Source of the DNA: Thermodesulfobacteriota bacterium | Lineage (GTDB): Bacteria; Desulfobacterota; Desulfobulbia; Desulfobulbales; JBFMBH01 | NCBI GenBank assembly: GCA_040755095.1 | Contig: JBFMBH010000019.1 | Location: 1 to 42,144, forward strand | Length of the DNA: 42,144 nucleotides | Direction of reading: 5' to 3' | Shown here: positions 3,483 through 42,144 of the stretch, piece by piece | Numbering within the stretch: the first letter of the stretch is position 1 | Layout: every line of letters starts with the position of its first letter | Program-made: the position numbers and the translations under genes | The notes under the pieces: model-generated | Database searches by the model: none | What the model saw: the letters and a program-made list of their open reading frames with translations, nothing else | Told to the model about the DNA's origin: nothing

Positions 3483-6400
3483 CTAGACAACCTGGTCCGG
3501 GGGGGGCGGACACTGGGGGCCCAGAACCTCCCCGATCCGGCGGCTGGAGGCGGCCAGGGAGACCCGGAGCTCTTCGACCAGGGCGGACAGGGTGTCGCGG
3601 TCGGCCTTTTCGGCCGCCTCTTCCAGTTGGCCGGCCACCGTGGCCACGGCCTCGGCCCCGATGTAGGCAGCCGCCCCTTTGAGGCCGTGGGCCTCCCGGC
3701 CGATCCCTTCCCGGTTGCCCTGGCCCAAGTCGGCCTGCAAGCGGGCCACTGTTTCTTGCCCGCTCGTCAGGTATGCCTCGCAGAGGGCCTTCGTCTTGTC
3801 CTTGCCCAAGAGGGCCAACAGGCTGACCAGCCGCTCCCGGTCCAGGCCGCCCGCGCCCCCGGGGTGGGGCGGCTCGTCCCAGGCGGGCAGGCAGGCGGCG
3901 ACCGGGTCCAGCAGCCGGCCGTGGAGGGAGGCGAAGAGCTCGTGCAGCCGCTGGATTTGCAGGGGCTTGGCCAGGGCGCCCTCCATGCCGGCGTCCAGGC
4001 AGGCCTGGATCTCCGCTGGGCCGGCGTTGGCGGTCAGGGCGATGATGGGCAGAAAGGCATCCTGGTCGCGGATGATCCGGGTCGCCTCCAGACCGTCCAT
4101 CTCCGGCATGCGGACATCCATCAGCACCAGGTCGTAATCGCCGTTTGCCACCGCAGCCACCGCCTCCCGGCCGTTGGCCACCGCCACCACATCGTGGCCG
4201 AGCCGGCGCACCATCTCGCAGGCCACCATGCGGCTGACCTCGTGGTCATCGGCCACCAGAACCCGGAAACGCCGGCCCTGGACGGCTGGCGCCGCCGGGC
4301 CGGACGGACCGGCGGCGGCGGTCGCCTCGGCCGAGCGCACCAGGCCCAGGCTGACGGCCATGCCCCGGAACAGGCTCTTGTGGAGCACCGGCTTGGTGAG
4401 GATGGTCTCCCCCGCGAGGTCCGGATAGATGCTGAGCAGCTCGGCCACCGCCACCGGGGAAAGAAGGAGGGCGGGCAGGCGGCGGAGGTTGGGGTGGCCC
4501 CGCACCTCCCGCAGCAGAGCCGGTCCAGGCACATCGGCCATCAGAACGTCGGCGAGCAGGAGATCGTAGGGCCGGCCGCTGGCCGCCGCCTCGGTCAAGG
4601 CCGCCATGGCCTCGCCGACCGCCGCCGCCGGCCGCACCGTCATGCCCCAGCCGGCCAGCACCTGCTCCAGGATCTCCCGGCTCATCGGATGGCCGGCCGC
4701 CACCAGGATCCGGCGGCCCTGGAGGAGGATGGCGGGGACCTCCCGATCCGCCGTCTGCTCGCCGGCCACGGTGCCCAAGGGGATCGCGAACCAGAAGGTG
4801 CTGCCCCGCCCCGGGGCGCTGGCAAGACCGATCTCGCCCCCCATGGCCTCCACCAGGCCCTTGCAGATGGCGAGGCCCAGCCCGGTGCCGCCGGTGCGGC
4901 GCGCCGGCGAGGCGTCCACCTGGTGGAAGCGCTGGAAGAGCCGGGACTGGGCCTCCGGCGGGATGCCGACCCCGGTATCGTGGATCGCAAAGCGGATGCG
5001 CTCCTCGCCGCCAGCGCTCCCCTGGCCATCCACCCGGATCCACACCCCGCCTTGTTCCGTGAACCGGATGGCATTGGCCACCAGGTTCATGAGGATCTGC
5101 CGGAGGCGCCCGGGATCGCCCACAAAGCTGCGCTGGCAGTCCGGGGAGACCAGGTACAGCAGCTCGAGACCGCCGCTGGCGGCCCGGGGGCCCAGGACCA
5201 TGACCACCCCTTCCACCAGGTCCAGGAGGCGGAACTCCTCCCGGGCCAGCTCAATCCGGGCCGCCTCCAGCTTCGAGTAGTCCAGAATATCGTTGATGAT
5301 GGTGAGCAGGGCCTCCCCCGACCGGCGGATGGTCTCGGCCAGGTGGCGCTGATCCGGATCCAGCCGGGAATCGAGAAGGAGATCCGTCAGCCCAATGACC
5401 CCGTTCATGGGGGTGCGGATCTCGTGGCTCATGGTGGCCAGGAACTCGGACTTGGCCTGGGCGGCCGCCTCGGCGATATCCTTGGCCGCCAGGCTTTCCC
5501 GCACCCCGGCCTCGCGCATCAGGAGCGCGCTGCGGAAGGCCTCCACCCCCTCGCCCAGCCGGACCATCTCCCGGGCATCCCCCAGGGGGGGCAGCCGGGT
5601 TTCCAGGTCGCCGTCCTTGAAGGACTGGAGGGCACGGATGATGCCCTCGACGGGTCGCACCAGCCGGGTCAAGACATAGACCATGGTGAAGACGATGACC
5701 CCTGCGGCCGCAAGGGTCCCGCCCCAGGACAGGGCCAGGACCGCGGTGGCCTGCCGCCGTAGGCTGGCGATGCGGGCCCGGAGCAGCCGGGCCAGACCGG
5801 TATCCAGCTCGGCGATCGCCGCCAGCACCCGCTCCTGCTGCAGGACAAAATCCCGCTCCTCCACCCCGTGCTCCCGGGCGGGCGGCGCCGCCAGAATGGT
5901 CTCCAGGATGGGGAGCACCTCGTAGATCACGGTGCCCACCACCCGATCCAGGGATGCCTGCAGCTGACTGCTGCCGACGTCCGGTCCCATGCGCCGCATC
6001 CCCGCAAGCAGAACCCGGATCTCGGCCATGGCCTGGAGCAGGCGCACCGATTCCGGCCCGGGCCGGCCCCGGCCGAGCCGGGCGCCGATGTGGGCGTTGC
6101 TGGTGGCGGTGAGGATCGCCCGCTCCAGATTGACGGCATCGAGCTGCAGCTGGCGCAGCTGGACGATCCGGGACTCGCCGATGAAGCCCTTGGGGGCATC
6201 CAGGTAGACCAGGTCGACCAGAAGGATGTGGAGGGTCTCCACCAGCCGGCCAGCCCGGCCCACCCAGCTCCAGACCTGCTCGTGATCCGCCGGCGCCCCC
6301 CCCTCCATGCCCAACAGGGCGAAGATCCCCTGGCGGGCATCCAGAAGCTCCGCCACCTCCCGCCGCAGATGGTCCAGCTCCGGCCGCTCCTGGGCCTGCC

Positions 6401-39973: not shown

Positions 39974-40948
39974 TTATGATCCGCCTCCCCCCGACTCCGA
40001 CAAGCCTTCAGCGCGCAGCTTCCGCACCTCCTCCACCGACAACCCGGTGCTGGTGGCAATCGCCTCGTCGTCCAATATCCCCAGCAGCCTGGACGCCACC
40101 GCCAGCTGGGTCTCACGACGACCCTGGGAAAGACCTTGGGAAAGACCTTGGGAAAGACCCTGCTCAAGACCCTGGGCCAACCCCTGCTCAAGACCCTTCT
40201 TCCTTCCGATCCGCTCCACACTGGATACATACGGCATGGTCGTTTCCTCCTCGAACGCCACCAGCTGCTGAAAAAATCCCTGCTCCAGCTCCTCCGGCAG
40301 TTGCATCAGCCAGTCGATGAAACGAAAAAGATCGATCACCTGCTGCCGAGCATACCCCCGGTCGTAGAGCCGACGCACCAGATCGAACTTCCACCGCGCC
40401 CGTTCGATCGCTGCATCCCGCGTCTCCCGGGCCTTCAGATGCGCCATCACCACCACCGCGAAAGGATTGCGGTCCTGCTCCAGGGCCTCCCAGCGGTCCG
40501 CGTAGTCCAACACCTTCGCCACCGGGAAGCGGAAGCCCAGCTCGCAGCCCCACAGCTCGTATCCGTACCGGTCCGGGCGCCAGTCGGCCCGGTCATCCGT
40601 CAACACCGCGCAGCTCATCACCCGGCGATCATAACGGTCGAAGATCCGGTAGTTGTACACATACATCCGCTTGGCAAAGACCTCCTGGGGCTGGCCCTGG
40701 ATCTCCGGATGCACCAGCACCCAGGCCTCGCCGCCGTCTCGGCGCCACACCTGGGCCAGCTTGTCCGCCAGCCGCCGGCCAAGCTTGGCGTCCCGGGTCA
40801 CCTGCCGCAGCTCCTTGTCCAGGAAGACATGGCCCCGGGACCAGTCGATGCCGCCATGGGCCACGGGGAAGAAGAAGGCCATGAATTCCGGAAAGTATCG
40901 GGTCAGGATCTCCTTCCACGGCGTATCGTAATCAGCGGATGAAGGCAT
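39974..40948 (-). CDS. Rpn-family recombination-promoting nuclease / putative transposase
   Basis: 324 residues from ATG 40948, chosen for GCGAGGAGCCC just upstream; 40963 is an alternative. The N-terminus DTPWKEILTRYFPEFMAFFF and VLVHPEIQGQ (about residue 85, the PD-(D/E)XK-type E-x-Q core) identify it. The middle holds MYVYNYRIFDRYDRRVMSCAVLTDD and FPVAKVLDY; a helical region with YDRGYARQQVIDLFRFIDWLM follows. The tail has four-residue repeats (KGLEQGLAQGLEQGLSQGLSQG), then LSVEEVRKLRAEGL. Rpn proteins cut DNA and raise recA-independent recombination in E. coli, and some act as phage-defence toxins. The gene shares promoter and tail with the deleted copy at 28446-28948. Confidence 0.85.
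   Translation of the reverse strand: MPSSADYDTPWKEILTRYFPEFMAFFFPVAHGGIDWSRGHVFLDKELRQVTRDAKLGRRLADKLAQVWRRDGGEAWVLVHPEIQGQPQEVFAKRMYVYNYRIFDRYDRRVMSCAVLTDDRADWRPDRYGYELWGCELGFRFPVAKVLDYADRWEALEQDRNPFAVVVMAHLKARETRDAAIERARWKFDLVRRLYDRGYARQQVIDLFRFIDWLMQLPEELEQGFFQQLVAFEEETTMPYVSSVERIGRKKGLEQGLAQGLEQGLSQGLSQGLSQGRRETQLAVASRLLGILDDEAIATSTGLSVEEVRKLRAEGLSESGGGGS
40125..40200 (-). repeat. 12-base tandem repeat in the Rpn tail
   Basis: Plus-strand units of the form GGGAAAGACCTT occur in tandem near 40125-40160, followed by related units with CTGCTCAAGACC. They encode the GL(S/E)QG repeats. Exact units near 40127-40160 make copy-number change by slippage likely. Confidence 0.7.
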
Positions 40949-41046
40949 GGGCTCCTCGCACACGAAGGAAGGAATGGCGGTCGCCGCTCGGCCGGCGGAT
41001 GGGCAGTTGGATTGCCACCGCTGGCGGCTGCTGCCCCCCTCCCGGC

Positions 41047-41190: not shown

Positions 41191-42144
41191 TCAGGCGGCC
41201 AGCCGGGGCTCGTCCAGCCAGAGCGGCAGGCGGGGCTTGATGGCGGGATGCGCTACCGCCACCGGCGGGGCGATGCCGGACTGGAGGGCGTTGGCGGGGG
41301 CGGTGCCCACCCCGCGCTCCGGTCCGGCGTGCCAGGGGACGGCCTCGGCCACGAAGAGGACGGGGCGGCCGAAGGCCAGCACCGCAGCCCGACGGCGGGG
41401 AAACTGGGCGAGGGGGAAGCCGTAGCGGGCGCCCCGGCGGTTGGCGGCCAGGGGGGACAGGCCCAGGCAGGACGAAAGCGCCTCGTCCCGGGCCGAATAG
41501 AACTCGACAAAGGCGCCGACCTGGAGGAAAACCACCGTCTCCGGGAACCGCCAGCGAAAGAAGCGGTACTGGCTGGCCACGCGCCCCAGGCCGGCCGGTG
41601 GCCGGAAACGGGGGACGAGGCGATAAAGATCGGGGGTCAGCAGAAAAAAGCGGCCAAGAAAGGCGTGGCGCTCCCAGAGGGCGGCCACCAGGCGACGGCT
41701 GTTGGCATGGCGGGCATGGCCCAGGAAGGAGGCGATGGTCGCGGCCAGGCGGTCGAGGGCGGGCAGGTCGAAGGAGAAGCGGGTGGCGTCGGGGAGGATG
41801 CGGACCAGGTGCTGCTCGGCGGCGCGCAGCCGCGCGGTCAGGTTACCCACCACCCGGCGCCGGACGAGAGAGTAGTCGGCCCGGACGATGTAGCCCACGA
41901 AGTCGATGCCGCCATGGGCCGGTGCCAGCCGCTGGCGGGGGTTCAGGTTCAGGGCCAGGGCGGAGGCGAGGAACAAGGCGATGGCCGCCCGCCAGGCCAG
42001 AAGCTGGTCGCGGCTGGCGGCCAGAAGGACGAAGTCGTCGCAGTAGCGCAGGTAGAAGCGGCAGCGCAAGGAGTGCTTCACGAACTGGTCGAGAAGGTTC
42101 AGGTAGACGTTGGCGAAGAACTGGCTGGTCAGGTTGCCGATGGG
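41191..42144 (-). CDS. Reverse transcriptase of DGR type with C-terminal MutS domain I-like region, 5' partial
   Basis: 317 residues are visible and the frame stays open to the window edge, so the N-terminal fingers are missing. Residue 1-8 is PIGNLTSQ, the (I/V/L)GxxxSQ form of motif 4 typical of diversity-generating retroelement RTs rather than the QGxxxSP of group II introns. FANVYLN follows, then the catalytic YCDD box (34-37), ALNLNPRQR (64-72) and IDFVGYIV (80-87). A helical thumb extends to about 180. Residues about 190-268 (SQYRFFRWRFPETVVFLQVGAF start, LGL, YGFPLAQFP, VLFVAEA) resemble MutS mismatch-recognition domain I, comparable with the MutS-like accessory proteins described for DGRs. 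Function: mutagenic copying of a template repeat, if DGR. No template or variable repeat is seen in the window. Confidence 0.75.
   Translation of the reverse strand, partial: PIGNLTSQFFANVYLNLLDQFVKHSLRCRFYLRYCDDFVLLAASRDQLLAWRAAIALFLASALALNLNPRQRLAPAHGGIDFVGYIVRADYSLVRRRVVGNLTARLRAAEQHLVRILPDATRFSFDLPALDRLAATIASFLGHARHANSRRLVAALWERHAFLGRFFLLTPDLYRLVPRFRPPAGLGRVASQYRFFRWRFPETVVFLQVGAFVEFYSARDEALSSCLGLSPLAANRRGARYGFPLAQFPRRRAAVLAFGRPVLFVAEAVPWHAGPERGVGTAPANALQSGIAPPVAVAHPAIKPRLPLWLDEPRLAA

Follow-up and report, generated by a model that had tools for sequence, protein, structure and literature searches.

Why would a reverse transcriptase (RT) end in a domain resembling the one with which MutS reads mismatches? 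The question is raised by the last 954 bases of the window, which is the whole stretch of DNA analysed, contig G000:C19 (42144 bp) of a genome assembled in 255 contigs. These bases form a minus-strand frame free of stops whose 5' side is cut by the contig edge. The gene is, with near certainty, made up of the last 317 codons of the RT gene of a diversity-generating retroelement (DGR), with a MutS domain I at its C-terminus.

The truncated reverse transcriptase gene

The gene, 317 aa long and without its 5' end, which lies beyond the contig, occupies positions 41191..42144 of the minus strand, on which all its parts lie. The frame starts at PIGNLTSQ, the DGR-type SQ motif of RT region 4 (residues 1–8, 42121..42144), so that the fingers and the first half of the palm are absent. 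The YCDD catalytic box is found at residues 34–37 (42034..42045), with D36 and D37 invariant in the alignment. The C-terminal part of the palm and the thumb take up residues 1 to about 175 (41620..42144), as placed by comparing the AlphaFold2 model with 8ub7_A. MutS domain I covers residues about 184–271 (41332..41595), delimited by Pfam scans of tails, profile comparison and the predicted model, and displays the motif series VFLQVGAFVEFY...LGL...GFP...VLFVAE; within it, F212-V213-E214 (41503..41511) align with the Phe-x-Glu by which MutS reads mismatches. A non-conserved extension follows (residues 275–317, 41194..41322; dN/dS about 1.1 with respect to a paralogue, see below) and the frame stops about 45 residues past domain I, leaving domains II–V and the Walker ATPase absent. 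Pfam matches to the window protein, RVT_1 (E 0.0074, residues 3–68) and MutS_I (E 0.037, residues 190–253), both fell below the cut-off. A 329-aa gene adjoins the RT gene at 39974-40963 (minus); it carries QGL(S/A/E)QG repeats near its C-terminus, has no Pfam match over cut-off, and presumably is of the Rpn/YhgA transposase-nuclease kind, which it resembles.

Both the (I/V/L)GxxxSQ motif, characteristic of DGR RTs in region 4 (PMC3521204), and the YxDD box are present in the window RT, as PIGNLTSQ and YCDD. The initial annotation had assigned the RT to the DGRs or a close group on these motifs, and the phylogeny agreed: in a tree of 46 rows the group II RTs stood apart (100/100) and the window RT fell inside the DGRs. 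A clade of 13 rows (98/94), nested in the DGRs including BPP-1, comprised 10 complete fusions together with L008, L007 and L087; L008 is labelled in the tree as a fused row, and the fusions G303, G164 and G397, found later, are absent from it. The structural comparison placed the protein likewise. The BPP-1 DGR RT (8ub7) was the best PDB match of both the window model (Foldseek rank 1, 1.4e-4) and the model of the full-length relative L006 (E 8.3e-24, TM 0.89), and residues 1–174 of the window model superposed on 8ub7_A with a VIA-align Z of 8.7. An RT of group II intron or defence (UG/DRT) type would be suggested by the best library matches, an NCBIfam group II RT model (32.7 bits, cut-off 300) and PADLOC RT_UG26, with no DGR model among the matches listed. 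However, the NCBIfam scores are all far under their cut-off, and that reading, contradicted by the 100/100 separation in the tree, by the fold and by the TR/VR data of the relatives (below), deserves almost no credence and was dropped.

The C-terminal tail and its relatives

The tail of the window protein scanned alone scored 14.7–16.8 bits against PF01624, under the Pfam curated cut-off of 20.6. PF01624 was matched by 11 of 12 related tails scanned singly (best E 3.9e-15), and in the genome search three related fused tails exceeded the Pfam cut-off (56.5, 36.9 and 34.4 bits). An hhalign comparison of the 12 tails with 29 MutS domains I of the same order gave a probability of 97.65 and an E of 2.6e-12 over 97 columns, with a score of 71.4; 20 column shuffles scored no higher than 15.9, and the reversed profile scored 15.5. 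This profile comparison bears out the initial reading of the approximately 80 residues after the thumb as MutS domain I. Against PDB sequences, the tail profile recovered Taq MutS (E 4.7e-16), E. coli MutS (E 5.5e-9) and MSH6 (E 3.5e-7). On 395 genomes of the phylum it gave matches at E <= 0.001 in 356, most of those listed falling in reading frames as long as that of a MutS protein.

In the AlphaFold2 model of the window protein, with a mean pLDDT of 70 and most tail blocks at 68–84 (the last block lower), the tail has the order helix-strand-strand-helix-strand-strand-helix-strand and the wedge lies in a strand pair. Taq MutS in complex with heteroduplex DNA was the Foldseek match of rank 4 (3.2e-3, probability 1.00), and residues 186–269 aligned on MutSbeta 8om9_B with a VIA-align Z of 9.2. 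The VIA-align Z values alone are moderate, and the assignment to MutS domain I is carried by the sequence evidence. Alignment A2 was poor at the last strands of the tail, and alignment A1 together with a separate tail alignment was used for this region.

The tail is under purifying selection. Its dN/dS was 0.234 between the window copy and the paralogue on contig C42 of the same genome, a pair in which the RT part reached 0.55 and the stretch beyond the tail 1.08; two further pairs gave 0.121 and 0.126 for the tail, similar to the values of the RT itself. The best-kept columns coincide with the signature positions of MutS, namely Q192, G210, E214, the aromatic residue at 212, G242, P244 and E267. 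In the wedge of MutS the Phe stacks on the mispaired base and the Glu contacts the same base. Residues 212 and 214 of the window protein align with these mismatch-reading Phe and Glu residues of Taq MutS, and the aromatic-x-Glu wedge (FVE in the window) is retained in all complete fusions. Among 13 non-redundant aligned tails, Glu214 is kept in 12 and an aromatic residue at 212 in all 13, with Tyr in place of Phe in several of them. Selection on these two residues argues for a retained wedge. L008 and L087 have lost the wedge from their RT tails.

Including the window, 13 complete fusions were found, in Methylococcales, Planctomycetota and the phylum of the window. The scan of one genome per species yielded tail-covering relatives in a Methylococcales MAG (L005, 53%), a Planctomycetota MAG (L006) and a Geobacter MAG (L008), as well as a Brocadiaceae MAG (L007) whose RT keeps only a short tail remnant. 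Complete fusions occur in the same order in G049, G002, G012, G088 (two copies) and G090, and in the wider phylum in G303, G164 and G397. Eroded tails are those of L007, L008 and L087 (the latter in G030); tail fragments were seen in G005 and G383, and G048 has a short frame containing stops. Weak MutS_I matches on G035:C67 and G035:C100 were rejected as chance frames. In the phage and plasmid collections the RT relatives among the matches listed lack the tail; coverage of the fused query reaches 80% or more in one plasmid record and in none of 153 phage records. The fusion of a DGR RT with MutS domain I is maintained by selection in several bacterial groups.

Fused loci and the copies in the host genome

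The fused loci behave as DGRs. Ten complete fused loci have sufficient sequence, and they yielded 14 A-only pairs of template repeat (TR) and variable repeat (VR), in which 260 of 590 TR adenines and 14 of 1237 other bases are changed; L006 starts inside its TR-like sequence and so allows no VR comparison. Among the fused loci outside G303, G164 and G397, Avd lies between VR and TR in every one examined, and it scored over the Pfam bAvd (PF22296) cut-off in both loci tested (L005 and L083). The fused clade keeps the canonical DGR order of target gene with VR, avd, TR and RT. No separate MutS-like protein was found in the fused loci scanned, the domain sitting in cis on the RT. The fraction of adenines changed is 44% with intact fusions, 41% in the clade members that lost the wedge or the domain (L007, L008 and L087) and 52% in DGRs without a tail. 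Since those three members keep the same adenine specificity, the wedge is dispensable for A-mutagenesis itself; their loss of the tail may be recent.

Two further features of these loci were observed. The distance from the TR end to the first conserved RT residue is only 4–28 nt in L008, L083–L086, L088, L186, L187 and L189, compared with 177 nt in BPP-1 and over 400 in some other DGRs, which leaves no room for the RNA spacer known from BPP-1; in L008, L083, L187 and L189 no stop interrupts the RT frame across the TR, and no ATG lies between. In L005 (about 110–930) and L081 (10583-10972) the variable region lies immediately 5' of a PEP-CTERM sorting signal, which makes export of the diversified proteins and their sorting at the cell surface probable.

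The genome of the window contains a second copy of the fused gene, a paralogue of 529 aa and 90% identity on contig C42 (L081 8846-10432). This copy lacks about 30 N-terminal residues of the RT and directly abuts a PEP-CTERM target gene, whose product ends in a variable-type segment (SYWYWPGTEY...VRPGD) like the VR target of L005, also a PEP-CTERM protein. No TR/VR pair is present in the window, where the contig ends inside the RT gene, or on C42, which has the VR-type gene and no TR. A DNA search of the assembly with the C42 VR did not find a TR, and the search for further VR proteins in this genome returned the C42 target only; avd was not found in the assembly either, in a search that had no positive control in this genome and shows little. 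A short RT match on C26, considered as the missing 5' half, was ruled out (26% identity). On C42 the arrangement reflects a true deletion or, alternatively, near-identical repeats that collapsed into one; an assembly break is favoured by the fact that the window contig stops at a point of near identity between the two copies.

Around the C42 copy, a 498-bp direct repeat of 97% identity (L081 6581-7075 and 11074-11571), corresponding to the 3' end of a polysaccharide pyruvyl transferase-like gene, flanks the RT and the VR target. Synonymous divergence between the window and L081 8846-10432 is 0.057 in the RT part and 0.274 in the MutS tail, a pattern that gene conversion homogenising the RT part, or a mosaic assembly, would produce. 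The genome also carries an intact MutS. A second, unrelated DGR is located on G000:C86 (L091, 3803-5301), with an RT of 402 aa that has no MutS tail, a TR at 5174-5301 and a VR at 3803-3930; 72% of the mismatches between them are at A.

The role of the tail and its known counterparts

In mutagenic retrohoming, RT-Avd makes cDNA on the TR RNA and introduces substitutions where the template has adenines. The mutated cDNA would pair with the VR and create a duplex rich in mismatches, on which host MutS can act. Domain I, tethered to the RT and held by the thumb, would most likely put its wedge into the cDNA:VR mispairs, so that the RT complex would stay on the heteroduplex and host MutS would be kept off; the new sequence could then be fixed rather than repaired back. 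This mechanism, in which the tail reads heteroduplex mismatches, holds the RT complex and excludes host MutS, is put forward tentatively. The initial annotation had proposed that such a module handles mismatched cDNA at the target, a plausible role with which the preserved wedge residues agree. A conflict with mismatch repair is possible because the host has an intact MutS and because work with the reconstituted BPP-1 system used a mutS deletion so that the DGR substitutions persist (PMC12875486). In the E. coli repair assay of the same work mutS had no effect, but the scored change was an 18-nt insertion, which is not a MutS substrate (PMC12875486). Against the mechanism count the unchanged adenine specificity of L007, L008 and L087, the Tyr in place of Phe in several tails and the fact that BPP-1 functions without such a domain. 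Besides, a MutS domain I deprived of the clamp may bind DNA weakly.

The same tail could instead be a structural extension of the thumb that binds nucleic acid or protein (TR RNA, the RNA:cDNA hybrid or Avd) through a MutS fold without reading mismatches. Its position directly after the thumb fits such a role, as do the loss of the wedge from the tails of the L008 and L087 RTs, the free-standing MutS-like protein of L007, whose domain is preserved (33 bits) except for the wedge loop, and an adenine specificity that is the same with or without the tail. However, a purely structural role does not predict that the wedge Glu and aromatic residue are conserved in all complete fusions, and the tail recurs in distant taxa with the wedge motif intact; we regard this explanation as doubtful, yet one to be taken seriously. 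The tail adjoins the end of the thumb, the part that grips the primer-template duplex, and could also assist the RT by binding the new RNA:cDNA duplex behind the active site and letting mispaired ends at template adenines be extended; misincorporation at adenines is the defining activity of DGRs. Yet the fraction of adenines changed is not higher with the tail (0.44) than without it (0.52), and MutS domain I reads a B-form DNA duplex whereas RNA:cDNA is nearer to A-form, which makes this assistance quite improbable.

In the window the tail might also be a decaying relic, with this copy and the C42 paralogue as remnants of a broken DGR, given that neither avd nor TR was found in the assembly and that the C42 copy, short at its N-terminus by about 30 residues, lies directly against the target gene. 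We consider this unlikely: between the two copies dN/dS is 0.23 in the tail and 0.55 in the RT, the YCDD box is intact and there are no stops, and in a MAG of 255 contigs, in which near-identical repeats break assemblies, a missing short region is weak evidence. Taken as a whole, the best explanation is a fused DGR RT whose selected domain handles mismatches in retrohoming, to which we assign a little less than an even chance. Still more speculatively, this DGR lineage might possess a built-in mismatch reader that binds the mispairs created by the RT and blocks or redirects host repair at the target, so that the RT would produce the mutations and also protect them.

Among the open steps of retrohoming is the installation of a DGR cDNA that deliberately differs from its target and yet escapes reversal by repair; a DGR RT with selected MutS wedge residues points to a protein handle on this step. 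The fused domain may also be of use to targeted-mutagenesis tools that are hampered by mismatch repair.

MutS-like accessory proteins (MSL, PF01624) are already reported for DGRs in PMC10053308, citing Wu et al. 2018, as the initial annotation had stated; the same paper mentions domains, unnamed, fused to the RT. These proteins share the Pfam domain and the association with DGRs, whereas the window and 12 other loci have the domain in cis on the RT. No description of an RT-MutS fusion in DGRs was found in the literature covered, outside of which lies the Wu 2018 survey, which may list it; the cis fusion thus seems to be the new element. Free-standing MutS-I-like proteins were also seen beside DGR RTs at L094 9077-9628, L147 9714-10193 and L007 383-730. 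The L094 and L147 proteins keep the aromatic residue (FYK, FYT) and not the Glu, and that of L007 (116 aa, between VR and avd) has no wedge loop and accompanies an eroded RT tail, which suggests that the module may move between cis and trans. A non-wedge role of domain I in some DGRs is possible.

With bacterial MutS (Taq 1ewq/1fw6; E. coli 1e3m) and MSH6/MSH3 the tail aligns over the whole of domain I, sharing the QY start, the G-x-[FY]-x-E wedge, LGL, GFP/GVP, the Glu and the final KRR/VKRE. Unlike MutS, the fused RTs have neither domains II–V nor ATPase nor clamp, and some tails show Tyr for Phe. The closest annotated phage RTs, the DGR-type RT of Pseudomonas phage Haboob (OR683404) and its relatives, are 43.8% identical over the RT part, have a four-helix-bundle protein encoded upstream and carry no MutS tail. 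The BPP-1 DGR (mtd-avd-TR-brt, 8ub7) has in common with the fused relatives the palm and thumb fold of the RT, the order VR, avd, TR, RT and the A-only mutation; its bRT of 328 aa ends after the thumb, whereas the fused RTs continue into MutS domain I.
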